Of a stretch of DNA of 35,213 bases, positions 3,560 to 28,030 are shown in pieces. The stretch covers positions 1 to 35,213 of the forward strand of contig JAJPKH010000219.1 of the NCBI GenBank assembly GCA_021323795.1, given 5' to 3'. The first letter of the stretch is position 1. The number at the start of each line of letters is the position of its first letter. Position numbers and translations under genes: made by a program. Under the pieces are notes generated by a model, which saw only the letters and a program-made list of their open reading frames with translations, was not told where the DNA came from and ran no database searches. This DNA is from Acidiferrobacteraceae bacterium. GTDB taxonomy: Bacteria; Pseudomonadota; Gammaproteobacteria; Acidiferrobacterales; Sulfurifustaceae.

Positions 3560-3688
3560 CTGACGAGGTACGTCACCCGACCAACGCGCCTCGATGCCGC
3601 ACGGAGTTTATCCAATACACCAACTGTTAAAGCTAACGCTTTGCTCCGTTGAGTGGCGCGTCGTGAGGAACAAACGCGAAACCTTCGA

Positions 3689-4753
3689 TCAACGATGGTA
3701 GGCCGTGCTTAATTCATGTACGGCGTCGATCAGTACACCGACCTTGTCCGGCTCGATATCGGGAGTAATGCCGTGTCCGAGATTAAACACGTGCCCGCTT
3801 CCGTTCCCAAAACGCTCCAGGCCCTTAGCCACCTCCGCGCGTATCGCTTGCGGTGTGCCATAAAGCGCCGCGGGATCGAGATTGCCCTGTAGCGCCACGC
3901 GATCACCGATGCGCCGGCGCGCTTCCCCGAGATCGGTTGTCCAATCAATCCCGACAGCATCGGCGCCACTGCCGGCAATCGCCTCGAGCCACTGACCTCC
4001 GCCTTTCGTGAAAACGATGACGGGAACATGGATTCCGTTGGCACCGTCTCGTACAGCCTTAATGACGTTCGTAACGTAGTCGAGCGAGTACGCCAGATAA
4101 GCATGCGCCGATAGCATTCCGCCCCAGGTATCGAAGATCATGAGCGCTTGCGCGCCGGCGGCGACCTGCGCTTGAAGATAGCGACTCACCGCGCGCGCCA
4201 AAATCTCGAGCAGGCGGTGCAGCACGTCGGGTGCCTGGTAAAGCATGCGCTTGATGTGCGCGAAATCCCGGCTTCCTCCGCCCTCCACCATATAAGTGGC
4301 CAAGGTCCACGGGCTTCCTGCGAAACCAATTAGCGGGACGCGGCCACTCAGTTCGCGCCGAACGGCTCGAACGGTATCCATTACGTACCGCAACTCGGCT
4401 TCCGGATCCGGCACGCTCAGACGATCGACGTCGGCACTGTGGCGAATCGTCCGAGTGAACCGTGGGCCTTCGCCTTCGAGGAACTGCAGGCCCAGTCCCA
4501 TGGCGTCGGGAATCGTCAGAATGTCGGAGAAAAGTATGGCCGCGTCGAGTGGGTAGCGATTGACCGGCTGCAACGTCGCTTCGCAGGCAAGCTCCGGCGT
4601 CATGCACAAGGTGCGGAAATCACCCGCGCGGGCGCGCAGTTCCCGATATTCCGGCAAATACCTACCGGCCTGGCGCATGATCCAGACCGGAGTGACGTCG
4701 ACCGGTTGGCGCGCCAGAGCGCGCAGGAGGCGATTGTTTTTCAGCTCATCCAT
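3689..4753 (-). CDS. hemE: Uroporphyrinogen decarboxylase
   Basis: 354 aa, [41 protein letters not shown]; full-length HemE motifs. Confidence 0.97.
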
Positions 4754-4830
4754 TCGAGTTTTCGCCGAAATAACGGAAGGCCGCCCATTAAGGGCCGTAG
4801 CGACCCTTTCCTTCTTTCAGCGGCGGCGGA

Positions 4831-6276
4831 TTACGGAAGAGGGGCCGGCAGATCGGAAGCGCCCATGAGGTACTGATCCACCCCGCGCGCGGCGGAGCGG
4901 CCTTCGGCGATCGCCCAGACGATGAGCGACTGGCCGCGCTGCATATCGCCCGCCGTAAACACGCCGCGAACGCTCGTCATCCAGTTCGCATCCCGCCACA
5001 CGTTGCCGCGCTCGTTAAGCTTGACACCCAATTGCTGCAACATGCCCGCTTTTTCCGGGCCGACGAATCCCATGGCGAGCAACACCAGATCCGCCTTCAG
5101 GGTGAACGCGCTTCCCGGGATTTCCTTTATCGTGGGGCGGCCGTTTTCCAGCACCGTCTGGACTTTGACGAGCTCCAGCGCGATCACGCGACCACTTTCT
5201 CCGATGAAACGCCTGGTCGATACCGCGTACACGCGTTCCACGCCTTCTTCATGGGCGGAGGCAACACGGTAAATGACAGGCCACTGCGGCCACGGGTTAT
5301 TCTCCGCCCGGTGCTCCGGAGGGCGCGGCATGATCTCAAGCTGATGCACACTCGCCGCACCCTGGCGATTGGCCGTGCCCAGGCAGTCGGCACCCGTATC
5401 TCCGCCGCCGATAATGACCACGCGCCTGCCTTTGGCGTCGATACGTTTGTCCGCGGGGACTTGGTCGCCTTCGCACAGCCGATTCTGCTGCGGCAGGTAC
5501 TCCATCGCGAAGTGAACGCCTTTCAACTCGCGTCCGGGCACCTTCAGATCCCGTGGCTCGGTCGCCCCGCCGGTCAACACGATGGCATCGAAGTTGTCGC
5601 GTAATTCCTCGACGGGCACGTTCACGCCGACGTGCGCGTTCACCCGGAACTCGACGCCCTCGCCTCTCATCTGCTCGAGGCGCTGATCGAGGACCTTCTT
5701 CTCCATCTTGAATTCCGGGATGCCGTAACGCAGCAGGCCGCCGATGCGGTCGTCACGCTCGAATACGCTCACTTGATGGCCGGCGCGTCGCAGCTGCTGG
5801 GCTGCCGCCAAACCGGCCGGGCCGGAACCGACCACGGCGACTTTCTTGCCGGTTTCGACTACGGGCGGGAGCGGCTTAACTTTGCCGTCCTGCCATGCGT
5901 GCTCGGCGATCGCGAGCTCGATGGCCCGGATCGTTACCGGATCATCGTTGATGCCAAGCACGCACGAACCTTCGCACGGCGCCGGACAAAGGGTGCCGGT
6001 GAACTCAGGAAAATTATTGGTCTCGTGCAGGCGATCGATCGCGTCTTGCCAGCGGCCGCGATAGACGAAGTCGTTCCAATCGGGAATCACGTTACCAAGC
6101 GGGCAGCCCTGATGGCAAAACGGAATGCCGCAATCCATGCAGCGCGCGCCCTGCTTCTTCAGCTCGTCTTCCGGATACGGCCGCATGACCTGCTTCCAGT
6201 CACGCACACGCTCCGCGACCGGCCGATACGGCTGCTTGGCGCGTTTGAACTTGACGAAGCCTTTGATATCACCCAT
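4831..6276 (-). CDS. gltD: Glutamate synthase small (beta) subunit
   Basis: 481 aa; N-terminal Fe-S cysteines ([17 protein letters not shown]), [27 protein letters not shown](P)-binding GGGDTGADC. Its start overlaps the gltB end. Confidence 0.96.
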
Positions 6277-9200
6277 GCGCCGCGTCCATCACCGCCTGGT
6301 CTTCAGGCACGCCGGTTTCACGCGCCCGGCGGATGGCCGCGAGCACTTGCTTGTAATCCTTCGGAATGACCTTGATGAACTTGGCCTGTGACGCTTTCCA
6401 GTGATCGAGCAGTTTCTGGGCCACCGCCGAGTTGGTGTAGCGCACGTGGTCCTTCAGCATTTCTTTCACTTCATCGGCATCGTCACCGATCAGCGACTCA
6501 AGTTCGATCATCTCCATGTTGCAGCAGCGCTTGAAGTTGCCGTCCACGTCGAGCACGTATGCGATGCCGCCCGACATGCCCGCCGCGAAGTTACGGCCGG
6601 TCTTTCCGATCACGACCACGCGCCCGCCGGTCATGTACTCACAACCGTGGTCGCCGACCCCTTCAACCACGGCGTAAGCGCCGGAGTTGCGCACACAGAA
6701 ACGCTCGCCGGCGACGCCGCGGAAATACGCTTCACCGCTGGTGGCGCCGTAGAGGGCGACGTTGCCGATAAGGATGTTTTCCTCCGGCACGAACGTCGAC
6801 TGGCGCGGCGGATAAATCGCGATCTTGCCGCCTGACAGGCCTTTACCGACGTAATCGTTGGCGTCGCCCTCGATCGTGAAGGTGATGCCCTTCGGCAGGA
6901 ACGCGCCGAAGCTTTGACCCGCTGAACCATTGAAGTGAATACGAACGGTATCTTCCGGCAGCCCTTGCGCGCCATAACGCTTGGTGACTTCATATCCCAG
7001 GATGGTGCCGACCGTGCGGTTGACGTTTTTGATGGGCAGAATGATGTCGACCGGCTTCTTCTTTTCCAGCGCCTCCTGGCACAGCGGCAGGATCGTCGTG
7101 CGGTCGAGCGACCTTTCGAGCGCGTGATCCTGCGCGCGCACGCAGCGGATCGCGACCTCGTTGCCCATCTTCGGTTGATACAGAATCTTGGCAAAATCAA
7201 GCCCGCGCGCCTTCCAGTGCTCGACCGCCGGCTTAACGTTCAGCCGATCCACGCGCCCGATCATTTCCTCCATCGTGCGGAACCCGAGCTGCGCCATGTA
7301 CTCGCGCACCTCTTGCGCCACGAAGCGGAAAAAGTTGACGACGTGATCCGGATTGCCGGCGAATTTCTTGCGCAGCTCCGGATCCTGCGTAGCGATACCG
7401 ACCGGGCAGGTATTGAGATGGCAGACGCGCATCATGATGCAGCCGAGCACGGTGAGCGGCGCGATGGAAAAGCCGTACTCTTCCGCGCCGAGCAGCGCGG
7501 CGATGACGACATCGCGGCCGGTCTTCATCTGGCCGTCGGTCTGCACGACGATGCGGTCGCGCAGCTTGTTCATGACCAGCACCTGCTGGGTCTCGGCGAG
7601 ACCGAGCTCCCAAGGCAACCCGGCATGTTTGATCGAGGACAACGGGCTCGCGCCCGTACCGCCGTCATGTCCCGATATGAGCACGACGTCGGCGTGCGCC
7701 TTGGCGACACCCGCGGCCACGGTGCCCACCCCCACCTCGGAAACGAGCTTCACGTGAATTCGCGCTTCGGGGTTCGAATTCTTGAGGTCGTGAATGAGCT
7801 GCGCCAAGTCCTCGATCGAGTAAATATCGTGGTGCGGCGGCGGCGAAATCAGGCCGACCCCGGGCGTCGAGTGACGTACTTTGGCGATGGGGGGATAGAC
7901 CTTGTGCCCGGGCAGCTGCCCGCCTTCGCCGGGCTTCGCCCCCTGCGCCATCTTGATCTGCAAGTCGGTGGCGTTCACCAGATAGTGGCTGGTAACGCCA
8001 AAACGCCCGGACGCGACCTGCTTGATACGTGAATTGCGCACCGTTCCGTATCGTTCCGGATCTTCGCCGCCTTCGCCGCAGTTCGAGCGAGCGCCGATTT
8101 TGTTCATCGCGAGGGCAAGCGCCTCGTGCGCCTCGATACTGATCGAACCGTACGACATCGCACCCGTCGCGAAGCGCTTCATGATGGCTTCGACCGATTC
8201 CACTTGCTCGATCGGAATCGCCTGCTCGGCCGGCTTGAGGTCCATCAAGCCGCGCAGGGTCGCGAGATGGCGGTTGTTCTCGTCGCACAGCTTGGAGAAT
8301 TCCTTGAAGAGCACGTAGGAGTTGGAGCGCGTGGCATGCTGCAATTTGGCCACCGTGTCCGGGTTGAGCATGTGGACCTCGCCATCGCGGCGCCACTGAT
8401 ACTGCCCGCCCCAATCGAGATCGGGCGGTCCCACCGGACGATCGGGATAGGCGCGATGATGCCGCAGCGACGCTTCTTGAGCGACCACATCGATGCCGAT
8501 GCCGCCCACTCGCGACGCGGTGGACGTGAAATACTTTTGCACGAATTGCTGCTCGAGGCCTATCGCCTCGAAGATTTGCGCCGCCCGATAGGATTGAATG
8601 GTGGAGATGCCCATCTTCGAGATCACCTTGACCACGCCCTTATTCAGCGCCTTGATGTAGTTCTTTACCGCTTGCGCGTGATCGACGCCCTTGAGCAGTC
8701 CCTGGCGGATCATGTCATCGAGCGTTTCGAAGGCGAGATACGGGCAAACCGCGCCGGCGCCGTAACCGAGCAGCAGCGCCATGTGATGCACTTCGCGCGG
8801 CTCGCCGGTCTCGACGACCAGTCCCACGCGCACGCGCGATCCCTCCCGCACGAGGTGATGGTGAACCGCCGCCGTGGCGAGCAGCGCGGGAATCGGAATG
8901 TGTTCCGCGTCCACGCCGCGGTCGGAAAGAATGATGAAGCTGTGGCCCTGCGCTATTGCGTCCGTCGCCTTGCGACACAATTCCTCCAGCGCCTTGGCCA
9001 GTCCGGAACCGCCGGAACCGGCCGGGAACAGCATCGGCAGCGTCGTGGTACGAAAACCGTTGTGGCGCAGATGCCTGATCTTCTCGAGCTCCTCAAGACC
9101 CAGGATCGGCGTCTTCAGCTTCAGCAAGCGGCAGCTCTCGGGGCCCGGTTGCAGCAGGTTGCCTTCCGGCCCGATCGGCGTCTCGATCTGCGTAACGAGC

Positions 9201-13828: not shown

Positions 13829-13855
13829 AAGATAGCGGCGCGCCGCCGCTATCTT
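13829..13855 (-). other. Intercistronic perfect hairpin (12-bp stem, 3-nt loop) at the pilQ stop
   Basis: AAGATAGCGGCG (13829-13840) / CGC loop / CGCCGCTATCTT (13844-13855). The downstream U-tract on the minus strand is short (CTTGATTTCCC). Confidence 0.75.
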
Positions 13856-16401
13856 TAGCGCAGAGTTAGGTTTTCGGAAACGATGCGCGGGGTGAGAAAG
13901 ATCAAAAGCTCGGTCTTGTTGTCGCGTACGTCCTTGGTCTTGAACAGCCATCCGAGCAGCGGTATGTCGCCAAAGAACGGGACCTTGGTGATGGTGTCGT
14001 TCTTGTCCTGCTCGTAGATGCCGCCGATGACGACGGTTTCGCCGTTATCGAGCAACACGCTCGTGTCAATCTCCTTTACGTTGAGCAGTCCCTGCACCGA
14101 GTCAGCAAAATTGTCTTTGGTAATGTTGACGTCAAGATTGACGCGGTCATCCGGCGTGATCTGGGGCGTGACTTCCAGTTTTAAAGTCGCCTTTTTCGTG
14201 ACCACCGAACCTACACCGAGCACGGAGGTTGTGAATACCCGCTCCTGGCCCTGCTCGATCTTGGCTTTCTTTTGATTGGCCGTGATAACTCGCGGGCTCG
14301 ATATAATCTTGCCGTTGCCTTCTTGTTCTAATGCGGACAGCTCGAGGTTCAGCAGATCACCGCTCGATCCGAGTTTCGCGAGGGTGAAGCCGATAGACGC
14401 GGCGGGGGTACCGCCTACGCCGGTAGAAGCAAGGTTTACGTTGAGCCCGGTAGCATTAGCGCCCAGCGTCCCCGCCGTTATTATGCCGCTCGAATCTTCG
14501 ATGGTACCTGAGACCGCGCTGTCCCGCTGTCCCGCTGGATTTCCCAAGTTTGCCTTCTTTACGCCGAAACGTACGCCCAATGACCGGGCGAAATTATCGG
14601 TGGCCTCCACAAGCCGTGTTTCGATTAGTACCTGTCGGACCGGCTGATCAAGCTTCAGAATTAGTTTGCGGATTTCGCGAATTTTGCCCGGCGTGTCTTG
14701 GATAAGCAGAGAATTCGTGCGCGCATCAACGGTGACCTGACCGCGTGGCGACAGCAGCGAGTTCGAGTCCGTCGCCGCCTGCACGGAACCCCCGGTAGCA
14801 CTCGCGCCGAAAACAGGATGCTGCCCGGCACCGGCTGTTACCGCCTTGATGGACTTCAGTAATGTCGCAATATCGTCGGCTTTCGCATAGTTGATTTGGA
14901 CGAGCTCGGATACCAGCGGTTCGAGTTCAATAAACGATTTCGCCGACTCGAGCGCCGCCTTTTCTTTCGCAGCCACTTCCGTCGCCGGTGCGACCGTGAC
15001 CACGTTGCCTTTGCGTCGCACCGCGAGATTCTTCGCGTCCACGATCAAGTCTAGCGCCTGATCCCACGGCACATCTTTCAAACGCAGGGTCAAGTTGCCC
15101 CTGACGGTATCGCTGACGACGAAATTGAGGCCCGTGAAATCCGCGAGCACTTGGAGGGCCGCGCGCACATCGATATTCTGGAAGTTGAGCGACAGCTTCT
15201 CGCCCGAATAGCCGAATTCGTCCACCTTCTTCTCATCCGGCTTCTCTATCACCGGCTTGATACTGATAGTGAATACGTCTCCTGTCTGATAAGCGACATG
15301 CTCATATTTTCCCTTGGGGGTGATGACCATGCGCGTATTGCGGCCCTGCCCGAATGTGTCGATGGTTTGTACCGGCGTCGCAAAATCCACCACGTCTAGT
15401 CGGCGTTGAAGATCATTCGGAACGGACGTGTTCAGGAAATCGACGAGGATTTCGCCCGTTTGCTCGCGTATATCCACACCTACGGTCGGATCCGACAATT
15501 TAATGATGATCTTGCCGTCCGCCTGGGGTCCGCGCCGGAAATCTATGCTCTTCAAACTGTATTTCCCGCTCACGCGGGTACTCGCGAAGTGCGTCGTCTT
15601 CGCCGACTCCGCCGCCGCTGCGCCGGGCGCATTGACGGTGATCACGTAATTATTGTTGTCGATGGCGGCGGTATAGCCGACCGGCTTAATTAAGCTCAAC
15701 ACGACGCGCGTGCGGCCTTCGGACTCGATCGCGGCAACGCTCGAAACGGCCCCTTCCCGCACGGGCACACTCTTGTTCGGCATCGTCACGCGGGTAGCGG
15801 GGAAGTCGAGCGCGACGCGGGCGGGATGGGTGATCGAAAACGTACTTGGCTCGCTCGGCCGATTGGCCATTCGCACCACGATTTGGATGCGATCACCCGG
15901 CAACTTGGCGTACACGATGTCTTTGATCTCGTTCAGCGGCGGCGCCGGAACCTTGGCTTCCACTGCCGGAGGAGCGGCATCGGCTTGCGCTTGTTTCGTC
16001 TCCGCCGGCTCGACGATTGCAGTGTACCCGAACGGCGCCTTCTCCAGGCGCAACTGGCCGGGCTGCTCCAGCACAATGTCTACATTCGCCGTGGTGCCAT
16101 CCGGAGCCATTGACGGATAAACGCCTTTTACGTATTGCTGCCCCTGTAAGTCGGACGCCTGCGAACCGAGCTTGGTTTCAGGAAAACTGACCCGCAGCCA
16201 TTGTCCGTTTTCGCGCGTCTCAACTTTGTATTCCGCGTCTCCATTCAACGAAATTTTTACCGCGGGGCTCGCCGTTCCGGCTGACCACGACAGCGACTCG
16301 ATTTCCGCGGCAGCGGCGAGCTGCGCCAGCAACGCGAGCGGCAAACACCAGAAGCCGATATAGGAGCGCCCTATATTTCGAATCATGGTTCGTCTGTGCA
16401 T
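13855..16401 (-). CDS. pilQ: Type IV pilus secretin PilQ
   Basis: 848 aa; signal peptide, AMIN-like N-terminal region, STN/secretin N domains (LSLNFQNIDVRAALQVLADFTGLNFVVSDTVRGNLTLRLKDVPWDQALDLI), C-terminal secretin domain (ETVVIGGIYEQ, VPFFGDIPLLGWLFKTK). Confidence 0.96.
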   Translation of the reverse strand: MHRRTMIRNIGRSYIGFWCLPLALLAQLAAAAEIESLSWSAGTASPAVKISLNGDAEYKVETRENGQWLRVSFPETKLGSQASDLQGQQYVKGVYPSMAPDGTTANVDIVLEQPGQLRLEKAPFGYTAIVEPAETKQAQADAAPPAVEAKVPAPPLNEIKDIVYAKLPGDRIQIVVRMANRPSEPSTFSITHPARVALDFPATRVTMPNKSVPVREGAVSSVAAIESEGRTRVVLSLIKPVGYTAAIDNNNYVITVNAPGAAAAESAKTTHFASTRVSGKYSLKSIDFRRGPQADGKIIIKLSDPTVGVDIREQTGEILVDFLNTSVPNDLQRRLDVVDFATPVQTIDTFGQGRNTRMVITPKGKYEHVAYQTGDVFTISIKPVIEKPDEKKVDEFGYSGEKLSLNFQNIDVRAALQVLADFTGLNFVVSDTVRGNLTLRLKDVPWDQALDLIVDAKNLAVRRKGNVVTVAPATEVAAKEKAALESAKSFIELEPLVSELVQINYAKADDIATLLKSIKAVTAGAGQHPVFGASATGGSVQAATDSNSLLSPRGQVTVDARTNSLLIQDTPGKIREIRKLILKLDQPVRQVLIETRLVEATDNFARSLGVRFGVKKANLGNPAGQRDSAVSGTIEDSSGIITAGTLGANATGLNVNLASTGVGGTPAASIGFTLAKLGSSGDLLNLELSALEQEGNGKIISSPRVITANQKKAKIEQGQERVFTTSVLGVGSVVTKKATLKLEVTPQITPDDRVNLDVNITKDNFADSVQGLLNVKEIDTSVLLDNGETVVIGGIYEQDKNDTITKVPFFGDIPLLGWLFKTKDVRDNKTELLIFLTPRIVSENLTLR

Positions 16402-16424
16402 TGGATTCCTACCTGTCGCGGTCT

Positions 16425-16949
16425 TTATTGTTCGGCAAGCGCGACGCTGGCCTCGCGCTCAACCCAGTCTCCCAACGTTCCCTGTACCAGCTCTACCAGA
16501 TTGATTTTGTCTTCGGTTATGCGCGTGATTGTCCCGAAGTTCTGACCCATGTGATTGCCGATCCCGGCGCGATGCACCGTGCCATCCGGCGCCTGAATCA
16601 CCGCCCACGCCTGTTTGCCGCGCGCCAATGTTCCGACCATTTTGAGGGCGTCGAGCGGAAACTCTTCGAGCGGTTCTTTACGCCGGTTCATGTCCGGTCT
16701 TGGGCCGTTTCCGGCAACTGCTTTGGCGTCTTGCGTCCTGAGATTAAAGGCGGCAAACGGATCCGCGAGCTTGGCTGCCGCATAAGCAAACGGTTCTTGC
16801 GTTTTTATCTCCGGCAGCGGCTCCACCTTGGGAGTCTTGCCCGCGTGCGCCGTTGCGACAAATTGGCGCAGGTCGTCCATCCCATCGTCCCCACATGCCG
16901 ATAGCATGGATCCTAAAATTCCGATCATGGCGAGGCGAGTAATTCTCAT
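16425..16949 (-). CDS. pilP: Type IV pilus assembly lipoprotein PilP
   Basis: MRITRLAMIGILGSMLSACGDDGMDDLRQFV... (lipobox LSAC), GTLARGKQAWAVIQAPDGTVHRAGIGNHMGQNFG; lies between pilO and pilQ. The track start is 16985. Confidence 0.93.
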   Translation of the reverse strand: MRITRLAMIGILGSMLSACGDDGMDDLRQFVATAHAGKTPKVEPLPEIKTQEPFAYAAAKLADPFAAFNLRTQDAKAVAGNGPRPDMNRRKEPLEEFPLDALKMVGTLARGKQAWAVIQAPDGTVHRAGIGNHMGQNFGTITRITEDKINLVELVQGTLGDWVEREASVALAEQ

Positions 16950-16971
16950 AGACGTGGCCACACCCTCCTCG

Positions 16972-17592
16972 TTACTTACCGCCACGCCGCGGTTTCGGCG
17001 GCGCCTGTTGCACCTGCCCCGCGTCCAGATAGCGGTAGGTACGTGCCGTCGCTTGCATGGAAAGCCGGCCGCCCTGCGCTGACGTAATAGAGATATCGCC
17101 GAAGGTGACGATACGCGGCAAAGCCGCCACGTCGCTCACGAATTGTGCGAGCTCGTGGTACGAGCCGGTTACCTGAAGACTGATCGGCAGTTCCGCGTAG
17201 AAATCCCGCGGTTGCTCCTTTTCCGGCCGAAATAAGCTAAATTCCAATCCACGTCCGAGCCCTGCCTGCGTGATATCGACGAGCAAATCCGGGACTTCCG
17301 TGGTGTTTGGAAGCTGGCGGAGCAAGCTGCCGAACGTCTGCTGCATTTCTTCCATCTGCTTGCGGTACAAGTCGATGTTCAGCGCAAGCAGTTTTTTGTT
17401 GAGATAGGTTTCACGAAGCGTTTGCTCTTCGTCCTGCGCGCGGGAGCGTTGTTCCAGCTCGTCCGCGATCACGAACCAATAGCCGGCGCCGAGAATAAGA
17501 AAAGCGATAACGGCGATGCCGACAATCTTGACGGGCAGCGGTAACGCGGCGATGTTCTTGACATCGATATTTCTCAGCTCGTCGAGCGTCAT
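16972..17592 (-). CDS. pilO: Type IV pilus inner membrane protein PilO
   Basis: 206 aa; single N-terminal TM, coiled coil, LRQLPNTTEVPDLLVDITQAGLGRGLEFSLFRPEKE...FYAELPISLQVTGSYHELAQFVSDVAALPRIV. Confidence 0.94.
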   Translation of the reverse strand: MTLDELRNIDVKNIAALPLPVKIVGIAVIAFLILGAGYWFVIADELEQRSRAQDEEQTLRETYLNKKLLALNIDLYRKQMEEMQQTFGSLLRQLPNTTEVPDLLVDITQAGLGRGLEFSLFRPEKEQPRDFYAELPISLQVTGSYHELAQFVSDVAALPRIVTFGDISITSAQGGRLSMQATARTYRYLDAGQVQQAPPKPRRGGK

Positions 17593-18170
17593 GTGCCCGC
17601 CCCGCCCGTGCTTGCCGCTTCTTTCTTCGCCACGTTTTTCACTTTCAACGAAAACTCGCTGACGCGGTTGCCGCCGCGCTGACGAACGTTTATAACTTCA
17701 AGCTCGGGATCCGAAAACCACTCTGAAGCGGCGAAGTTCCGCATGAGCGCCGAGACGCGCGCATTCGACTGCGCGACGCCCGTCAAAGCCATGCTCGACC
17801 CGCCGGTCTGTTTGATTGTCAAAAGCTGCACCCCGTCCGGAACGCGGCGCACCAGCTCGTCGAACACGCGCACGACGCGCGTCCGATCCGCCTGCAATTG
17901 CTGGATGACATTCATGCGCGCTATCAAGTCTTGGCGCCGCTTCTTGAGCTCCGCCACTTCCTTGATTTGCTGCTCGACCTTGGCAATCTCCTGCTTCAAA
18001 AACTCATTGCGCTTGGTTTGGGTTTCGATCAGCGCGCTTACATGTATATGCGCGTAAAAGACGATCACGATCATCAAGACCCAGGCGCCGATCGCAATCG
18101 TGAGCAGCTGCCGGTCCTGCTCGCGGCGGCGCATTTCCCGCCACGGGAGGAGGTTAAGACGAGTGCTCAT
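17589..18170 (-). CDS. pilN: Type IV pilus assembly protein PilN
   Basis: MSTRLNLLPWREMRRREQDRQ... TM, coiled coil, LVRRVPDGVQLLTIKQTGGSSMALTGVAQSNARVSALMRN. Start taken as ATG at 18170. Confidence 0.94.
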   Translation of the reverse strand: MSTRLNLLPWREMRRREQDRQLLTIAIGAWVLMIVIVFYAHIHVSALIETQTKRNEFLKQEIAKVEQQIKEVAELKKRRQDLIARMNVIQQLQADRTRVVRVFDELVRRVPDGVQLLTIKQTGGSSMALTGVAQSNARVSALMRNFAASEWFSDPELEVINVRQRGGNRVSEFSLKVKNVAKKEAASTGGAGT

Positions 18171-19246
18171 GCGTCGAAGCTCCGCAAAGCAAGCCCGCAT
18201 GCGATCATCAGAGAGGGCGCATCGTTACTGAGAAGCTGCGGCTTGATGCGCGAGGAAATCGACATATTGGCAAAAGGATTCGCGACCATCGCCGGTACGC
18301 CGATTCGAGCCGCTACCAGCTCATCGATACCGGGGATCTGTGCACAGCCGCCGGCGAGCAACAATTGATCGACGCTGTTGAAGGGGCTCGAGGAGTAGAA
18401 AAACTGAAGCGCGCGCATGATTTCTTGACACATCGCTTCCATGAACGGGCGCAGCACGTCGGTTTGAAAGTTGTCGGGTAAGCCACCCTGTTTTTTGGCG
18501 AGACCCGCTTCTTCATAGGACAAACCGTAGCGGCGCTGAATCTCCTCGGTTAACTGGCGTCCGCCAAAAGTGTGATGGCGCGTGTAAACCGAGCGATTGT
18601 TGTGCATGACGTTGATGGTGGTCGTCATCGCACCTACATCCACGATGGCAACCGTTTTTTCCATGCCGCCGCCCGGCATATGATTCGCGATGAGAGCATA
18701 AGAATGCTCCATCGCGTAGGTTTCGATGTCCACCACGCTCGGCGTCAACCCGCGGCCTTGTATTACGGCGAGATAGTCGTCTACGACTTCCTTGCGACAC
18801 GCCGCCATAATGACGTCTACTTCGGTCGGGTTCGGTTCGGCCGATTCCAACACTTGGTAATCGAGGTTTACTTCGTCGAGCGGATAGGGGATGTAGTGGT
18901 CCGCCTCCATCTCGATTTGCATCTTCCGCTCCTGATCGCTCAGGTTCGGCGGCATCTTGATGATCTTCGTAATAACGTTGGCGGCCGGCACGGCTACCGC
19001 CGCGTGCTTAAGGCGCGTTCCCGAACGCTTAACCGCGCGCTCGACCGCTTCAGCCACCTGCTCGACCTCGGTGATGGCATGCTCGACGACGGCGTTCTGC
19101 GGAAGCGGCTCGACTGCGTAACGTTCAACGCGATACTGTTCGCCTTCTTTGCTGAGCTCGAGAACTTTCACCGCGGACGAACTGATATCGATGCCCACCA
19201 GCGGCGGCTGTTTTCGCGCGAACAATATTTCGGCGAGTCCTCGCAC
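18167..19246 (-). CDS. pilM: Type IV pilus assembly ATPase-fold protein PilM
   Basis: 359 aa; LVGIDISSSAVKVLELSK, AVAVPAANVITKIIKMP, IVDVGAMTTTINVM, LLLAGGCAQIPGIDELVA. Confidence 0.96.
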   Translation of the reverse strand: MRGLAEILFARKQPPLVGIDISSSAVKVLELSKEGEQYRVERYAVEPLPQNAVVEHAITEVEQVAEAVERAVKRSGTRLKHAAVAVPAANVITKIIKMPPNLSDQERKMQIEMEADHYIPYPLDEVNLDYQVLESAEPNPTEVDVIMAACRKEVVDDYLAVIQGRGLTPSVVDIETYAMEHSYALIANHMPGGGMEKTVAIVDVGAMTTTINVMHNNRSVYTRHHTFGGRQLTEEIQRRYGLSYEEAGLAKKQGGLPDNFQTDVLRPFMEAMCQEIMRALQFFYSSSPFNSVDQLLLAGGCAQIPGIDELVAARIGVPAMVANPFANMSISSRIKPQLLSNDAPSLMIACGLALRSFDA

Positions 19247-19310
19247 GACTTTCCCCTTCGATTCAGACGCCTAGAACGGATATTGATAATGTGGGTTAAT
19301 GGCTATACGA

Positions 19311-19340
19311 ACTATAGACCATAGAATTTCGAAGTGACAA
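19311..19340 (-). promoter_or_regulatory. Candidate sigma-70 promoter for the pilMNOPQ operon
   Basis: On the minus strand TTGTCA (19340-19335), 18-bp spacer, TATAGT (19316-19311), upstream of pilM; each hexamer matches consensus at 5/6. Confidence 0.5.
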
Positions 19341-19424
19341 ATGAACTCGGGGCGCTTCAGCGTTTCATATATACTTCGCCCAGCGTGCGTTTTTTCCGCC
19401 TAATTTGCTTAACTGTCTCGCCTC

Positions 19425-21983
19425 ATGGATAGCCCCCCCGGCGTAGATCGTCCCCCCGGCCTGTTCGACCGACTATCGGCCCATCTGCCCCGCAGACGGT
19501 GGCAATTGATCGTGGCCGCCTTGTTGGGGCTGCTGGCCACCGGCGTCATCGTCGTCGCGATGATCGCCTTGGCGCTGCTTCCCACGCTTCCTCCTATCAC
19601 TCAGCTGGCCGACGCCGAGCTCAAGGTGCCGTTGCGGGTCTACACGGCGGACGGCGAGCTGATCGCGGAGTTCGGCGAAGAGAAGCGCATTCCGGTAAAA
19701 ATCGACGCCGTGCCGCCGCAGCTCATACAAGCGATCCTCGCCGCCGAGGATCATAACTTTTATCAGCATCACGGCGTCGACATTCTCGGTCTGCTGCGCG
19801 CCACTTGGTACAACTTCCGCACGAAAAGCTCGGGCCAAGGCGGCAGCACCATAACGATGCAAGTGGCGCGGAATTTTTTCCTTAGTCCCGAGAAAACCTA
19901 TACCCGTAAGCTGAAGGAACTGCTGCTTGCGTTCAAAATTGAGCGCGAGCTCTCGAAGGATCAGATTCTCGAACTCTATATAAACAAGATTTTTCTGGGA
20001 CATCGCGCGTACGGCTTTGCCGCGGCGTCGCAGGTCTACTACGGAACGACGCTCGACAAGCTGACACTCCCCGAGATCGCAATGCTCGCCGGCTTGCCGA
20101 AGGCGCCTTCGCGGGACAATCCGCTCAGCAACCCGCGGAGCGCGCTGGAGCGCCGCGACTATGTGCTGCGGCACATGCAGAATATTGGCTACATCGACGA
20201 GGCGACGCTCGATCAAGCGATCAAAACGCCGTTGACCGCAAGTCGACATGTGGTCCGGTATTCACTCGATGCACCGTATGTCGCCGAGATGGTGCGGCAG
20301 TACATGTTCCAGACGTATGACGAAAAGGCGTACGCCGGCGGATTTCACGTCTACACCACGCTCCTAAGTAAGCATCAGCGCGCGGCCAATCAGGCACTGC
20401 GTCAAGCCTTGCTCGAATACGACCGGCGCCACGGTTACCGCGGGGCGGCGGCGCACGTTTCGCTGCACGAAGCCCCGGACATGGATCGGTTGGATGACGC
20501 GCTCAAGGACTACCGCGTGGTGGGCGATTTGCTGCCAGGGATCGTAACCGACGTGGCCGAACGGTCCGCGTCGGTTTACACCCAGGACGGAACGGTGGTC
20601 GAGATCGACTGGGCGGGTCTTTCGTGGGCGCGTCGATACGTGAATGAAAACACCCTCGGCCCGGTCCCCACAAACGCGGGCGACGTCTTACAACGCGGCG
20701 ACGTGGTTTACCTCGAACCGGTGGAAGAGGCAGCCGGCGGTTCGGAGCCGCGTTGGCGCTTGGCTCAGATCCCTTTGGTCGCTGGGGCACTCGTGTCGCT
20801 GCGTCCCAAGGACGGCGCGATTCTCGCTCTTACGGGCGGTTTTGACTTCTACCACACGAGCTTCAACAGGGCGACTCAGGCCGAGCGCCAGCCGGGATCC
20901 GGTCTGAAACCCTTCGTTTACGCGGCCGCCTTGGAAAAGGGCTTCACGCCCGCCAGCACGGTCAGCGGAGCTCCGATCGTCATCGAAGACGTAAACCTCG
21001 AAGATGAGTGGCGGCCGGAAAACTACACCCGCCAGTTTTTTGGCCCGACGCGTCTGCGCAAGGCGCTCGCGCTCTCGCTCAATCTCGTGTCCGTGCGTTT
21101 GGTGCGCGCTATCGGCCCCGCCTACGCCGCGCAGTACCTGACACGCTTCGGATTCGAAGCCGAAAAACTTCCGAAGAACCTTTCGATTGCGCTCGGCAAT
21201 GCCTCGGCTACACCGCTGCAAATGGTTTCCGCTTTCGCCGTGTTTGCGAACGGCGGCTCGCGTGTCCAGCCGTACTTCATCAGCCGCGTGGAGGATGGCC
21301 GCCACAATTTGTTGGAGCAGGCTAATCCACCCGTCGCGTGCTCGGATTGCGACGTCCCGCGCGATGACGGCGCTCGCAAAGTAACCCTTAATGCTTCCGA
21401 GCCAAAGGCAGCGGAAAAACCCGAGCCCTCTATAGCGCCCCGTGTGGTAAGCCCGCAAATCAGCTTCCTCATAACGAGCATGATGCAAGACGTGATTCGC
21501 GAGGGAACGGCAACCGCGGCGAAGGTGCTCGGCCGCAAAGATCTCGCCGGAAAAACCGGCACCACCGACGAATACCGCGACGCGTGGTTTTCGGGCTTCA
21601 ACAGCGACATCGTCGCTACCGCCTGGATTGGCTTCGATCAATCCACCCCGCTCGGTCGCGGAGAGGCGGGAGGGCGCGCCGCCCTACCGATGTGGATCAA
21701 CTATATGCGCGTGGCGCTCGAAGGAATTCCGGAAAAGCCGCTGATTCCACCGGAAGGAATCGTGAAGTCCTATATCGACATGGAATCCGGAGCGCGCGTA
21801 GCGGCGCTCGGTCCCAACACGATGGAAGAGTATTTTATCGAGGGCGCGGAAGGCGGAAATGCGGCAGGCGTGACGGAGACGACGCCGGCTTCCCTGGGCG
21901 GGGCAACGGTACAAACGGCCCCGCCGGCGTCCATTCCGCCCGCGCCGCCGGATGCCGAGAAACTTCGAGAGAAGCTCTTCTGA
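19425..21983 (+). CDS. mrcA: Penicillin-binding protein 1A (bifunctional transglycosylase/transpeptidase)
   Basis: 852 aa; GT51 motifs ILAAEDHNFYQHHGVD, GGSTITMQVARNFF; transpeptidase motifs RQPGSGLKPFVY, KTGTTDEYRDAWFSGF; diverges from pilM as expected. Confidence 0.96.
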   Translation: MDSPPGVDRPPGLFDRLSAHLPRRRWQLIVAALLGLLATGVIVVAMIALALLPTLPPITQLADAELKVPLRVYTADGELIAEFGEEKRIPVKIDAVPPQLIQAILAAEDHNFYQHHGVDILGLLRATWYNFRTKSSGQGGSTITMQVARNFFLSPEKTYTRKLKELLLAFKIERELSKDQILELYINKIFLGHRAYGFAAASQVYYGTTLDKLTLPEIAMLAGLPKAPSRDNPLSNPRSALERRDYVLRHMQNIGYIDEATLDQAIKTPLTASRHVVRYSLDAPYVAEMVRQYMFQTYDEKAYAGGFHVYTTLLSKHQRAANQALRQALLEYDRRHGYRGAAAHVSLHEAPDMDRLDDALKDYRVVGDLLPGIVTDVAERSASVYTQDGTVVEIDWAGLSWARRYVNENTLGPVPTNAGDVLQRGDVVYLEPVEEAAGGSEPRWRLAQIPLVAGALVSLRPKDGAILALTGGFDFYHTSFNRATQAERQPGSGLKPFVYAAALEKGFTPASTVSGAPIVIEDVNLEDEWRPENYTRQFFGPTRLRKALALSLNLVSVRLVRAIGPAYAAQYLTRFGFEAEKLPKNLSIALGNASATPLQMVSAFAVFANGGSRVQPYFISRVEDGRHNLLEQANPPVACSDCDVPRDDGARKVTLNASEPKAAEKPEPSIAPRVVSPQISFLITSMMQDVIREGTATAAKVLGRKDLAGKTGTTDEYRDAWFSGFNSDIVATAWIGFDQSTPLGRGEAGGRAALPMWINYMRVALEGIPEKPLIPPEGIVKSYIDMESGARVAALGPNTMEEYFIEGAEGGNAAGVTETTPASLGGATVQTAPPASIPPAPPDAEKLREKLF

Positions 21984-22612
21984 TGGGAGCTCGTTCAGGT
22001 GCGCGCCACGGCAAGGCGGCGGTGCGGGGAGAAGAGCAAAAACGCTTGCGCATCGCGACCGAGGCGGCGCGAATCATGGCAGAGGAGGGCGTGCGCGATT
22101 TCCAAATCGCCAAGCGCAAGGCGGCGGCGCGCTTGAACCTCTCGGAAATACGGCATCTGCCCGGCAACGAGGAAGTGCAAGCGGCGCTTTCCGAACATCT
22201 ACAGCTGTTTCATAACGCCGAGCTTGCCCGCAATACCCGGCGACTGCGCGAAATCGCCGTCGAAGCCATGCGATTTCTTTCGGCATTCGAGCCCCGTCTC
22301 GTGGGCGCGGTTTTGAGCGGCACGGTGACGCCGACCTCGGAAATCCAGCTCCACTTGAGCGCGGACTCCTCGGAACAAGTCGGATTATTTCTCCAGGAGC
22401 ATAAAATTCCTTACCGCCTTGGCGAACGCCGTGTCCGCTTCGGCGGCGATCGCTACAGGAATGTCGCCACCTACCACTTCACGGCCGATCAAGTGGCCGT
22501 GGAGCTTTGCGTATTCGACCCACGCGCGGCGCGAGAGGCGCCGCTCAGCCCCGTGGATGGGCGGCCGATGCGACGCGCTAATCTAAAAGAAATGGAAGAA
22601 CTGCTCGCTTGA
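21983..22612 (+). CDS. Conserved uncharacterised protein, possibly nucleotidyltransferase-like
   Basis: ATG at 21983 overlaps the mrcA stop (TGATG) and shares the frame of track ORF 21584..22612. MGARSGARHGKAAVRGEEQKRLRIATEAARIMAEEGVRDFQIAKRKAAARLNLSEIRHLPGNEEVQAAL...FEPRLVGAVLSGTVTPTSEIQLHLSADSSEQVGLFLQE...PLSPVDGRPMRRANLKEMEELLA. Confidence 0.8.
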   Translation: MGARSGARHGKAAVRGEEQKRLRIATEAARIMAEEGVRDFQIAKRKAAARLNLSEIRHLPGNEEVQAALSEHLQLFHNAELARNTRRLREIAVEAMRFLSAFEPRLVGAVLSGTVTPTSEIQLHLSADSSEQVGLFLQEHKIPYRLGERRVRFGGDRYRNVATYHFTADQVAVELCVFDPRAAREAPLSPVDGRPMRRANLKEMEELLA

Positions 22613-23638
22613 CTAGCCGGTGGATAGCTGCATCCCCACGCGGTTCCCGCCGGTGGCCTTGGCACTTTGAAGCGCCGCTTCCGCCGCCTTTAGAAAAGTC
22701 GCGGCGTCGGTCGATGGCTTGAACTGCGCGGCCCCGACCGACACCGTCAGCGACGGCAGAATGCTTTCATCGGACATGAGCACGACCGCTTCGCTTATCG
22801 CGTGCCGCACCCGTTCAGCCACCAGGCACGCGCCGGTCACGTCGGCCTCGGGTAAAACGACGGCAAACTGCGCCGGTCCATAACAGGCGATCAAATCCGT
22901 CGGCCGCACGCTGTTGATCAGCGTCTGCGCGACCGCATACCGGGCATGATCGCCGGCGGCATGGCCAAAGTCTTCCGTATATTTCGCGTAGCCGTCGATC
23001 TCCAAAAGCAGCAAACTGAGCGGTGCGTTACCCATGGCGCTGCGCGTGATTTGACGCGGCAGCATTGAGTCCAGCCACACGCGGTTGTGCAAACCGGTGC
23101 TTTCATCGAGCGTCGCGTGGCGCTTGTACGAGGTCTTGAGCTCCGCGCTCGCACCGATCGTTCCGCCGGTGCGAAGACGCTCCGCCAGGAGTGAGAGCCA
23201 ATTACGCGCCGTTTCATGCGAGGCGCCGATCAGCGCCCACGCGGTCTTACGGTCGACAACCAGCAAGCGCGTTGGCTCGGCGGCGGATACGGTCCAGTTG
23301 ACCACCGCTTCCTGCAGGAGAAACAGTTCACCGATGCTGTCACCCGCGGTGACAAACATGTCTGGAACCGTGGATGACGGATCCTGCATTTGCAGGCGGC
23401 CGCTCAGCACGAGATAGAGCGTCTGGCAGGATTCGCCGGCGCGCAGCAATACTTCACCGGTCGCCAGCACCCGGACGGGGCAGTCGGTTAGCAGCGGTAC
23501 GATCGTTTCCTGGTGCGCGCCTTTCAGTAAGGCGACACGTGCGAGCTCCTTCCGCGAAAACCGAATAGACGCCGACGCCCGGGCTTCACGGCGCAGATCG
23601 GCGAAACTCTTATTGGCGTGACTCATTACTTTGCTCAC
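22613..23638 (-). CDS. Cyclic-nucleotide-binding domain plus degenerate GGDEF domain protein
   Basis: N-terminal cNMP/CRP-like fold (TGEVLLRAGESCQTLYLVLSGRLQMQ...GDSIGELFLLQEA), C-terminal GGDEF-like domain (LDESTGLHNRVWLDSML, LLEIDGYAKYTEDFGHAAGD, RPTDLIACYGPAQFAVVLP). The start may be ATG at 23626. Confidence 0.85.
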   Translation of the reverse strand: MSKVMSHANKSFADLRREARASASIRFSRKELARVALLKGAHQETIVPLLTDCPVRVLATGEVLLRAGESCQTLYLVLSGRLQMQDPSSTVPDMFVTAGDSIGELFLLQEAVVNWTVSAAEPTRLLVVDRKTAWALIGASHETARNWLSLLAERLRTGGTIGASAELKTSYKRHATLDESTGLHNRVWLDSMLPRQITRSAMGNAPLSLLLLEIDGYAKYTEDFGHAAGDHARYAVAQTLINSVRPTDLIACYGPAQFAVVLPEADVTGACLVAERVRHAISEAVVLMSDESILPSLTVSVGAAQFKPSTDAATFLKAAEAALQSAKATGGNRVGMQLSTG

Positions 23639-23782
23639 GGGGTTATCGCGAGTTAAAGCAAGCTTGATGCCAGTGACGACTGGGAGGCGCGCCGTAAACC
23701 CGACGCCGAATAACGTGAAGCATCACTTCTCGGCGTAGCGGCGTGCCGGTAGAATCCGCCGTCCGTTTGTCGAAAAGACCAC

Positions 23783-25543
23783 TTGAAACACCATCTTGAG
23801 AGTCTGATCTCCCAGGCGCTGGGGAACCTAAGAAAGGAGGGCGTGCCGCTCCCCGATCCGCTCCCTGCTGTTGAAGTCGATCGCACCCGTGCCAAGGAGC
23901 ATGGCGATTTTGCCTGCAATATTGCGCTCAGCCTTGCCAAGGCGGCCGGCGTCAAACCGCGGGCGCTCGCGGAACGTATCGTCGCGGCTCTCTCGCCCTC
24001 CGAACAAATCGCTCGCATTGAAGTCGCCGGCCCCGGCTTCATCAATTTTTACTTGCGTCCCGACGCCTTGCATGACGTCGTGAACTCGATTTTGTCGCAA
24101 GGCTTTAATTACGGACGCAGTATGGTCGGCGCGGGTCGCCGGGTACAGGTGGAGTTCGTTTCGGCGAACCCGACGGGCCCGCTGCACGTCGGCCACGGCC
24201 GCGGCGCAGCCTACGGCGCCACGGTGGCGAACCTCCTCGACGCCGTCGGCTTCAAAGTACACCGCGAGTACTACGTGAACGACGCGGGACGCCAAATGGA
24301 CATCTTGGCAACGAGCGTATGGCTGCGTTATCTCGAACGCTGCGGCGAGACGTTTCAATTCCCGAGCAACGGCTACAAGGGCGAATATGTTTACGACATC
24401 GCCGAGACGCTGCGCCAAAAACGCGGCGACGCGTATCGCCAACCGTCCAGTATGGTATTCCCAGGGATTCCTGCGGACGAACCACAAGGCGGCGATAAGG
24501 AAAAACATATCGACGCTCTCATCGGCCGCGCGAAACAGTTGCTGGGCTCCCAACGCTACGGCGAGGTGTTCGATTTGGGACTGCAGGTGATCCTCGATGA
24601 CATCCGACAGGATCTGGAAGAATTCGGCGTCGTGTATGACCAATGGTTCTCGGAACGGTCGCTCACGCAAAACGGACTGGTCGACCGTGCGATCGAGCGG
24701 CTGAAGCAAAGCGGGCACGTTTACACGCGCGAAGGCGCGCTCTGGTTCCGTTCGACCGATTACGGCGACGAGAAAGACAGGGTGATCGTGCGCGAGAACG
24801 GTCAGAAGACCTATTTCGCTTCGGATATCGCCTACCACATGGACAAGTTCGACCGAAACTTCGACCGGGTCATCGATGTGTGGGGCGCGGATCATCATGG
24901 CTACGTGCCGCGCATCAAAGCCGCGCTTGCCGCGCTCGGCGACGATCCCGCCAAACTCGACGTGCTGCTGGTGCAATTCGCGATTCTTTACCGCGGCGGC
25001 GAGCGGGTGCAGATGTCCACGCGCTCGGGCGAATTCGTCACGTTGCGTGAACTGCGGCGCGAAGTCGGCAACGACGCGGCGCGTTTTTTCTATGTGCTAA
25101 GAAAATGCGAGCAGCACATGGACTTCGATCTGGATCTCGCCAAGTCGGAGTCGGCGGACAACCCGGTGTATTACGTCCAATACGCGCACGCGCGGGTGTG
25201 CAGCGTCTTCAAGCAAATGAAGGAAAAAGGCATCGCGCACGACCGCGAAAACGGCGACCGCCACTTGTCGCGGCTTTCCGAGGAGCACGAGAAGGGACTC
25301 ATCGGGCGACTCGCGCGATACCCGGAAGTGGTGGAGGCGGCGGCGCTCGCGCACGAGCCCCATCAGCTCGCCCATTTCCTGCGCGAAGTCGCCTACGATT
25401 TCCATACGTATTACAACTCGCATACGTTTTTGGTCGAGGAGCCGAACCTGCGCGACGCGCGGCTCAATCTGATCGAAGCGACCCGGCAGGTGATTGCCAA
25501 CGGTCTCGGCCTCCTCGGCGTGTCCGCGCCGCAGAGCATGTAG
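23783..25543 (+). CDS. argS: Arginyl-tRNA synthetase
   Basis: 586 aa; [30 protein letters not shown] (HIGH-type), [39 protein letters not shown]; probable TTG start. Confidence 0.97.
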
Positions 25544-25546
25544 CGG

Positions 25547-26116
25547 ATGGCGCGCGCGCGGGCCGCAGCGAGAGGCGCGAAGAAGCGTTTGCCCGGCTGG
25601 GTCATTTTGCTGCTGGGGCTCGCGCTCGGTGTCGCCTCTGTTCTTATTACGCAGCTTGTTATCAAGCGCTCGGGCTCCAACGACGGGTTGGCGGGATTAT
25701 TCGCGGCGAAAGCGAAACGGGTCGAGCAGCAGCCGGCGAAACGCCCGGAGCCAGCCGTCGCCAGACCCAAGCTCGATTTCTATACCGTGCTGCCCGAAGT
25801 CGAAACCGTGCTGCCCGACCGTGGACGCGCCAAGCCGACCAAGGCCGAACGCCCGGAGGAGGGCGCGCGCTACATCCTGCAAGCCGGTTCGTTTGCAAAC
25901 TTTCAGGAAGCCGATCAGCTAAAGGCCAAGCTGGCGTTACAGGGACTACAGGCGCAAATCCAAAAGATCACAATCGAAGGCAGGGGAGAGTACTACCGGG
26001 TGCGTCTCGGCCCTTACGAAAGGCTGGAAGCTCTCGACGCGACGAGTCTGGAGCTGAATAAGCTCGGGTTGAAACCGATTCGCCTGAAGCTCAAGAAAGA
26101 CGCGGGCGCCGGATAA
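25547..26116 (+). CDS. SPOR-domain membrane protein (FtsN-like)
   Basis: 189 aa; N-terminal TM (GWVILLLGLALGVASVLI), linker, C-terminal SPOR repeat RYILQAGSFANFQEADQLKAKLALQGLQAQIQKITIEGRGEYYRVRLGPY. Confidence 0.9.
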   Translation: MARARAAARGAKKRLPGWVILLLGLALGVASVLITQLVIKRSGSNDGLAGLFAAKAKRVEQQPAKRPEPAVARPKLDFYTVLPEVETVLPDRGRAKPTKAERPEEGARYILQAGSFANFQEADQLKAKLALQGLQAQIQKITIEGRGEYYRVRLGPYERLEALDATSLELNKLGLKPIRLKLKKDAGAG

Positions 26117-26146
26117 GAGCGCCGTCCGCGACCGGCGCAACCCGCC

Positions 26147-28030
26147 TCAGTCCTCGAGATAGGTGTATCCCTCGAGACCCGCGCTCAGCTCTTTGAGGAA
26201 GCTCTCACGACGCTCGCGATCGAACCCGCTCGCGCGGTCGACTTTCTCGCGATAGGCCGCGAGCAAATCTTCCGGGTCGAAGTGCACGTAACGCAATACC
26301 GAGTCCACGGTGTCGCCGCGGCGGGGCGCGACCAGCGTATGACGACCGTCGGGCAGCAGCTCGACGTGGACCGAATCCGTATCACCGAAGAGATTGTGCA
26401 TGTCGCCGAGGATTTCCTGGTACGCGCCGACGAGAAAAATGCCAAGCAGGTACGGCTCGTTCCCGCGCGGCGCATGAAGCGGCAAAGTCGTGTCGACGCC
26501 TTCGGCGTTGACATAGAGATCGATACGTCCGTCCGAATCGCACGTGATGTCCTGTAATACGGCGCGGCGCGTCGGCGTCTCGCCCAGGCGATTCAACGGC
26601 ATCACGGGAAAGATCTGATCGATCGCCCAATGGTCCGGCATCGATTGAAACAGCGAGAAGTTGCAGAAGTACTTGTCCGCAAGCTTCTCGTTCAGCTCAT
26701 CGAGTACCTCCCGATGCGCCTTGGCGCCCGGCTCGAGCAGCTCGCGGACTTTCCGGCAAATGGCGAAATAGATCTGCTCGACGCGCGCACGCTCGGCCAA
26801 TGACAAGACGCCGTGATTGAACATGCCTTGGGCCTGCGAGAGGTAGTAAGCGCCGTCGTGATACGCCTCGATGGCCGAGCGATTGGAGATGTTGGCGTAG
26901 GCCTGCCACATGTCGCGAATCAACGGCGGCTCCTCCGGGCGCGCCGGCGGAAGCACGCCGGCGCCCGGCGCCTGCTCGCACTCGACCACATTCGTAATCA
27001 ACACCGCGTGATGCGCCGTGAGCGCCCGGCCGGACTCGCTCACGATGTCGGGATGCGGCAGGTCTTTTTCTTCGCAAATTTCCGCCAACGCGTACACGAT
27101 GTTGTTCGCGTATTCGCCCACGGAATAGTTCGTCGAGCAGAAGCTGCGCGAACGGGTACCCTCGTAGTCGACGCCGAGGCCGCCGCCGACGTTCACGACT
27201 TTGATATCCGCCCCGACGGCACGGAGCTCCGCGTAGTAACGCGCCGCCTCGCGCATGCCGGACTGGATGTGCTGCACGTTCGCGATCTGCGAACCCATAT
27301 GGAAGTGAATCATCTGCAGCGCGCCGACCAAACCCGCTTCACGCAGCCGCCCACAAGCTCGAAGCGCTTCGGACGCCGTGAGCCCGAACTTCGACTTCTC
27401 GCCTCCGGTGTTCTGCCATTTGCCGGCGCCGATCGAGGCCAGCCGCACGCGCAGTCCGAGAAGCGGCTCGATCCCGAGGCTCTTCGACTCCTGAATCACC
27501 AGCTCGAGCTCGGACAGCTTTTCCACGACGATATGCACCCGATGCCCGAGCGCCTTGCCAATAAGGGCGAGCCGCACGTATTCGCGGTCTTTGTAGCCGT
27601 TGCAGACGATGATGCCGTGCGGGCGCGACCGGGCGATGACGGCGAGGAGTTCCGGCTTCGAGCCGGCCTCGAGCCCGATCCGATCCCCGCCATGCTCGAG
27701 CAGCGCGTCGACCACGCTGCGCTGCTGGTTGACTTTTATCGGGTAGACCGCGGTGTAGCGACCACGAAACCCGCGTTCGGACGCCGCGGCGTCGAAGGCG
27801 CCGCAAAGTTCCTGCACCCGATGCTGCAGGATGCCGGAAAACCGCACCAGAACGGGCAGCGTCAGGTCGGCCGCCCGGAACTCGCGGGTCAGCTCGAAAA
27901 GATCGACGGTCTGCGGCGAATTTGGATCGGGCCGCGCGACGAGATGGCCGCGCTCATTGATGTCGAAGTAGCCGTTGCCCCAGTGGGCGATGTTATAAGC
28001 GTCGCGGGCTTTGGAGATGCTCCAGCTCAT
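26147..28030 (-). CDS. speA: Biosynthetic arginine decarboxylase
   Basis: 627 aa; YPIKVNQQRSVVDALLEHG (PLP lysine), FHMGSQIANVQHIQ, NVGGGLGVDYEGTRS, CDSDGRIDLYV. Confidence 0.96.
   Translation of the reverse strand: MSWSISKARDAYNIAHWGNGYFDINERGHLVARPDPNSPQTVDLFELTREFRAADLTLPVLVRFSGILQHRVQELCGAFDAAASERGFRGRYTAVYPIKVNQQRSVVDALLEHGGDRIGLEAGSKPELLAVIARSRPHGIIVCNGYKDREYVRLALIGKALGHRVHIVVEKLSELELVIQESKSLGIEPLLGLRVRLASIGAGKWQNTGGEKSKFGLTASEALRACGRLREAGLVGALQMIHFHMGSQIANVQHIQSGMREAARYYAELRAVGADIKVVNVGGGLGVDYEGTRSRSFCSTNYSVGEYANNIVYALAEICEEKDLPHPDIVSESGRALTAHHAVLITNVVECEQAPGAGVLPPARPEEPPLIRDMWQAYANISNRSAIEAYHDGAYYLSQAQGMFNHGVLSLAERARVEQIYFAICRKVRELLEPGAKAHREVLDELNEKLADKYFCNFSLFQSMPDHWAIDQIFPVMPLNRLGETPTRRAVLQDITCDSDGRIDLYVNAEGVDTTLPLHAPRGNEPYLLGIFLVGAYQEILGDMHNLFGDTDSVHVELLPDGRHTLVAPRRGDTVDSVLRYVHFDPEDLLAAYREKVDRASGFDRERRESFLKELSAGLEGYTYLED

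Follow-up and report, generated by a model that had tools for sequence, protein, structure and literature searches.

A protein that joins a cyclic-nucleotide-binding (CNB) domain to a GGDEF domain with a decayed active site raises the question of what, if anything, such a protein still binds. We asked this of an open reading frame at 22613..23638 on the minus strand of the window, by which we mean the whole 35,213-nucleotide stretch of DNA analyzed here. The frame codes for 341 amino acids from a GTG; translation probably starts instead at the ATG at 23626 (codon 5, four codons after the GTG), which would give 337 amino acids, since MSHANKSFADLRREAR and the MDQSKKTFEDMRREAR of the nearest homolog (L032) line up position by position. 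Pfam recognizes a CNB-like domain (PF00027, cNMP_binding, 48.3 bits; residues 56-137, 23228..23473, minus strand), which was found again in the genome search and which AlphaFold2 models as a beta-roll, and a GGDEF domain with a degenerate catalytic site (PF00990, 99.9 bits; residues 175-333, 22640..23116, minus strand), which is also seen by AlphaFold2 and Foldseek. Nothing else in the protein is matched by Pfam, and no DNA-binding domain is among the matches, in agreement with a sequence-only reading of this DNA that had described the protein as lacking one. A transcription factor of the CRP/Clp type is not what we find: Pfam matches no C-terminal HTH, and the C-terminal half is a GGDEF domain by both Pfam and AlphaFold2.

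The structure was predicted with AlphaFold2 as a single chain, from an alignment of the window protein with sequences of related loci. With a mean pLDDT of 91 and a pTM of 0.61, the model has two confident domains in an uncertain relative arrangement. The best Foldseek matches are GGDEF structures, many of them c-di-GMP-bound (WspR, DgcB, PleD, 3ign), and the rmsd to c-di-GMP-bound 3ign is 1.6 over 167 columns.

To compare individual residues, we used a PleD profile alignment that begins at residue 289 in native numbering; the offset is 114, no gap is needed, and each motif meets its PleD counterpart. Nine of 11 catalytic or substrate residues (the list of PMC12943098 plus E371) are replaced: L294S, D327E, F331Y, K332A, N335T, L347R, E370A, E371Q and R446G. 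Only D230 and K327, the equivalents of PleD D344 and K442, are retained. Four of the replacements (D327E, F331Y, K332A, N335T) fall in the metal/substrate segment EIDGYAKYTEDFGHAAGD (22949..23002, minus strand), which keeps D344 and which the sequence-only reading had quoted correctly as altered, and two (E370A, E371Q) lie in the active loop, which is GPAQF (22865..22879, minus strand) and not GG[D/E]EF. With D327, E370, K332 and N335 turned into E, A, A and T, the window protein is predicted to have lost diguanylate cyclase activity.

The inhibitory site (I-site) is in a different state. In PleD it is formed by R359 and D362 of the RxxD motif, by R390, and by R313 of the partner protomer (PMC7288161, PMC12943098). 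All four are present in the window protein as R245, D248, R276 and R199. The primary motif, RPTD (22895..22906, minus strand), had been noticed before at these coordinates, exactly five residues from the loop; the site proves fuller than that claim, since the third residue of the same protomer (R276, 22811..22813, minus strand) and the secondary, partner-side arginine (R199, 23042..23044, minus strand) are also there. The second I-site arginine of WspR, R198, aligns with M202 of the window protein rather than with R199. We considered whether this mismatch breaks the site and rejected it: the PleD R313 position is occupied by R199, and second I-site arginines at differing sequence positions do the same job, with arginines enriched at either one (PMC8041772).

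How informative is such a motif? Many degenerate GGDEF domains have been called receptors merely for their RxxD, which is present in most GGDEF domains anyway. In the genome from which the window comes, 21 of the 22 canonical GGDEF domains examined carry it. RxxD alone is thus weak evidence, and after this control we rejected it as sufficient for calling a receptor; since GGDEF domains of all kinds so often carry the motif, its conservation could also be partly structural. The decisive question therefore becomes whether the motif is retained once catalysis has been lost. Among degenerate GGDEF domains of other proteins, RxxD is found in 10/17 and lost in 7/17, against 24/24 in degenerate CNB-GGDEF proteins (Fisher p 0.0009, with a small and non-random control set).

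The CNB-GGDEF family itself was assembled by whole-genome searches of relatives, the order and the class, which gave 65 full-length homologs with an assignable class (41 active-like, 24 degenerate) and one more that was intermediate. Among the degenerate homologs, the catalytic residues are largely gone: E370 is kept in 0/24, E371 and K332 in 3/24 each, D327 in 7/24 and N335 in 9/24. The I-site residues are kept almost throughout (R359 and D362 in 24/24, R390 and R313 in 23/24). The sequence-only reading had named orthologs lacking RxxD as a finding that would count against it, and there are none among the degenerate homologs. The complete four-residue site occurs in 22/24 degenerate and 28/41 active-like members, and R313 in particular is kept more often in the degenerate ones (23/24 versus 29/41, p 0.02).

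When the tree was computed with the motif columns left out, 22 of the 24 degenerate homologs, all of the same order, fell into one clade (25 rows, SH-aLRT 95); the rest of this clade consists of two active-like members and a row that was not classed. L223 and L224, from other families of the class, lost their active sites separately on this tree and still keep RxxD. We counted changes on the smallest set holding the 22 degenerate members (23 rows, a total of 14.6 substitutions per site). R359 and D362 do not change at all, and a single change is seen at each of R313 and R390, while the eight catalytic columns tested change 8-13 times and the median over all 161 GGDEF columns is 8. All four I-site columns rank among the 13 most constant of the 161. 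Such a pattern is expected if selection preserves the binding of a ligand by the I-site, and is not expected from drift in a dead domain. What is remarkable in these sequences is the absolute retention of RxxD through the decay of the active site, not RxxD itself.

The genes around the CNB-GGDEF gene make it possible to follow this decay at a single locus. The order pilQPONM / mrcA / orfX / CNB-GGDEF / argS / SPOR protein is common to G001, G007 and G009 and is partly kept in G011 and G038; the copy in G006 lies at another location. At the syntenic position, the G011 copy (L034) has a canonical GGEEF loop and all catalytic residues intact. The loops of the others are GGQEF in G038 (L037), GGGKF in G007 (L036), GGGQF in G009 (L035), GAGQF in G001 (L033) and GPAQF in the window. 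We thus regard the active-looking and dead forms as positional orthologs in an enzyme-to-pseudoenzyme series, in which L034 is canonical, L037, L036 and L035 are partly altered, and L033, L032 and the window protein are dead. The comparison of these loci shows that the ancestors of the window protein at this position were active CNB-GGDEF enzymes. Active-looking homologs that match it over their whole length include L034, at the same mrcA-orfX position, L040, L041, L044 and others; unlike the window protein, they keep the whole set of D327, K332, N335, D344 and GG[D/E]E. With active-looking and dead orthologs sharing one locus in related bacteria, it becomes possible to tell selection on the I-site apart from inheritance and to test the conversion from enzyme to receptor stepwise.

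Within this conserved neighborhood, orfX (21983..22612, plus strand; 209 amino acids, of unknown family) lies between mrcA and the CNB-GGDEF gene and is convergent with the latter, with the stop codons adjacent. It is 54-70% identical across five syntenic loci and has no Pfam match. In the window, the conserved order, which several relatives share, runs over 13855-28030 (pilQPONM / mrcA / orfX / CNB-GGDEF / argS / SPOR / speA), placing a protein of c-di-GMP type near type IV pilus genes. A functional link to type IV pili through the nearby pilMNOPQ is only an idea, and we leave it at that because the neighbors may simply reflect an old conserved gene order and because the G006 copy lies elsewhere.

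Our preferred reading, to which we give a probability of roughly three in four on the strength of residue patterns and of analogy to studied proteins, is that the window protein is a pseudo-diguanylate-cyclase, which would bind c-di-GMP at its intact I-site rather than make it and whose GGDEF dimer would be clamped by the ligand. Two kinds of precedent bear on this. In WspR, PleD and DgcR, c-di-GMP dimers bridge two GGDEF domains, from the RxxD of the first to an arginine of the second (PMC2270323, PMC8041772), and WspR remains able to bind added c-di-GMP when its active site is dead (GGAAF; PMC2270323). In addition, PelD and BcsE have naturally dead GGDEF domains that use the I-site to bind c-di-GMP (PMC2170427, PMC7439463). 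From PleD, WspR, DgcR, PelD and BcsE we infer both c-di-GMP binding and the cross-linking of domains. The ample c-di-GMP machinery of the same genome, which has matches for 41 GGDEF, 23 EAL and 8 PilZ domains and in which the window protein is the sole CNB-GGDEF protein found, also counts in favor of a receptor.

In the mechanism we propose, the window protein would be soluble and would bind c-di-GMP as an intercalated dimer at the GGDEF I-site, with R245, D248 and R276 contributed by one protomer and R199 by the other. Because the I-site residues come from both protomers, the ligand would hold the homodimer's pair of GGDEF domains clamped in one orientation. This reorientation could pass through the helical linker to the CRP-like CNB domain, or could be read jointly with it. 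The CNB domain is probably a platform for dimerization or protein contact rather than a sensor of cAMP or cGMP, given that it has lost the arginine that would bind the phosphate.

CRP and mycobacterial Pat hold the cyclic phosphate with an arginine that lies in the phosphate-binding cassette. The corresponding cassette of the window protein, GELFLLQEAVVNWTV (residues 103-117, 23288..23332, minus strand), was aligned to the PRTATV of Mt Pat and to the family; it keeps GE, and the arginine is replaced by V113. The cassette column has arginine in 0/65 family members, and basic residues are entirely lacking from the stretch between E104 and V117 of the window protein. The sequence-only reading had suggested that the CNB domain binds cAMP or cGMP while the GGDEF domain binds c-di-GMP, making the protein an integrator of two ligands. 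Pfam does recognize the CNB domain, GE is kept in the cassette, and XC_0249 of Xanthomonas campestris, a protein of related architecture, binds cGMP at 0.29 uM (PMC3770947). However, the cassette arginine missing here and from 65/65 members is kept by XC_0249 orthologs (HARSAG), and in the alignment the window protein lacks the N145/E146 segment with which XC_0249 reads guanine. A source of the second ligand is also hard to find. We detected no class III (PF00211) or class I nucleotidyl cyclase in the window's own genome, whose completeness of about 90% keeps this from being proof, and no class III cyclase in G001 (98% complete) or G006 (99%), the genomes of the nearest homologs. We thus consider a two-ligand integrator quite unlikely; of the earlier proposal, the candidate c-di-GMP receptor stands, as a putatively dead GGDEF domain with a complete I-site under apparent selection, and the cAMP/cGMP half lacks support. 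The protein is a cautionary case, in that a Pfam cNMP_binding match should not be taken for evidence of cAMP or cGMP sensing. The loss of the cAMP-type arginine across the family might instead be taken to mean that the CNB domain, like that of the CRP-like regulator Clp, is itself a c-di-GMP site, whether or not the I-site also takes part, and CRP-family proteins can indeed bind c-di-GMP (PMC8547461 and papers cited there). No specific sequence feature points that way, and a pocket lacking any basic residue from E104 to V117 speaks against it, making this very improbable.

Two further explanations were weighed. The protein could be a pure scaffold, in which neither domain binds a nucleotide, only protein contacts matter, and RxxD has a structural role. 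XC_0249 influences pilus motility by way of a protein contact for which enzymatic activity is not needed (PMC3770947), and the type IV pilus genes pilMNOPQ are close by in several relatives. A structural role, however, leaves the joint retention of four scattered I-site residues unexplained. XC_0249 orthologs have alanine at the R359 position yet a normal GGDEF domain, and 7/17 other degenerate GGDEF domains have lost RxxD. A scaffold of this kind therefore seems unlikely to us. The GGDEF domain could also remain a residual cyclase, or a regulatory domain that binds GTP or GDP. Enzymes with AGDEF and SGDEF loops can be active (PMC3974145), and the equivalents of D344 and K442 are kept; against this, in the known active non-canonical enzymes the third position of the loop is still D and the fourth still E, where the window protein has A and Q, and the changes D327 to E, K332 to A, N335 to T and R446 to G would add to the damage. 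We regard residual activity or GTP/GDP binding as very improbable.

If the window protein is indeed a pseudoenzyme receptor for c-di-GMP, how does it relate to known systems? The closest known protein is XC_0249, a CNB-GGDEF protein that is an active cyclase stimulated by cGMP, with contacts that include E90, H98, N145 and E146 (PMC3770947). Like the window protein, it has a CNB domain followed by a GGDEF domain and no DNA-binding domain. Two other Xanthomonas genomes hold likely orthologs of it (L212, L213), which the family profile recovered as distant relatives. In these the CNB arginine is conserved, the GGDEF domain is active and RxxD is absent (AEGD/ADGD), so that the window protein is the opposite on all three counts; no counterpart of XC_0250, the guanylate cyclase linked to XC_0249, was found here.

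PelD of Pseudomonas aeruginosa offers a different likeness. Its GGDEF domain is dead, and RxxD together with R402, comparable to R276 here, binds c-di-GMP (PMC2170427). PelD serves the production of Pel polysaccharide and has a catalytic core with deeper alterations (PMC7439463), whereas the partner domain in the window protein is a CNB domain and no output system is adjacent. BcsE, which acts in cellulose secretion, similarly combines a decayed catalytic core with a retained, c-di-GMP-binding RxxD (PMC7439463), but has other partner domains and another operon context. In Bdellovibrio, Bd1971 joins a CNB domain to a domain of c-di-GMP enzyme type; that domain is EAL and not GGDEF, and the protein is reported to be an active phosphodiesterase that senses cAMP (PMC6717892). 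A GGDEF receptor that works through its I-site is therefore known, and the new elements are the CNB partner and the enzyme-to-receptor series at the level of the locus.

It is tempting to speculate that signal flow has been reversed in this lineage. In the ancestor, the CNB domain would have been the input and c-di-GMP the product; in the present clade, which sits at a conserved chromosomal locus, the I-site would be the input and the CRP-like domain the output, with catalysis and the usual cyclic-mononucleotide site both gone. We put this forward tentatively, at less than even odds. If true, it would be a c-di-GMP receptor architecture that we did not find in the literature searched.

Several other GGDEF proteins came to light along the way. 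A second one on the contig (1925-3559, minus strand) has a SiaD-like C-terminal half, a GGEEF loop and an RHHD I-site, and by its motifs looks like an ordinary active cyclase. A group of longer CNB-GGDEF paralogs (L051, L052, L053, L176, L177, L216, L217; open frames of 371-405 amino acids) is still more degenerate, with loops such as NNRRF, KNRYI and NRGGCV, and RxxD is still present; in G001, G006 and G010 these coexist with window-type or related CNB-GGDEF proteins. Viral contigs scanned with the window protein gave no relative. A contig scan with the family alignment used the generic pattern D[EQP]xTGL[HY]NR[RVH] and brought up, for the most part, GGDEF proteins that are unrelated, so it was not used to define the family. 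Only L068 and L069 in it were both full-length and close, and more distant tandem pairs appeared in Treponema. Three Treponema loci (L077 at 5410-7538, L113 at 3679-5705 and L115 at 2245-5124) each hold two CNB-GGDEF-like genes side by side. The first kind combines RxxD with an SGDEF-like or AGDEF loop, and its neighbor has KSNE[TV] and lacks RxxD; the two possibly form a pair of enzyme and pseudoenzyme.
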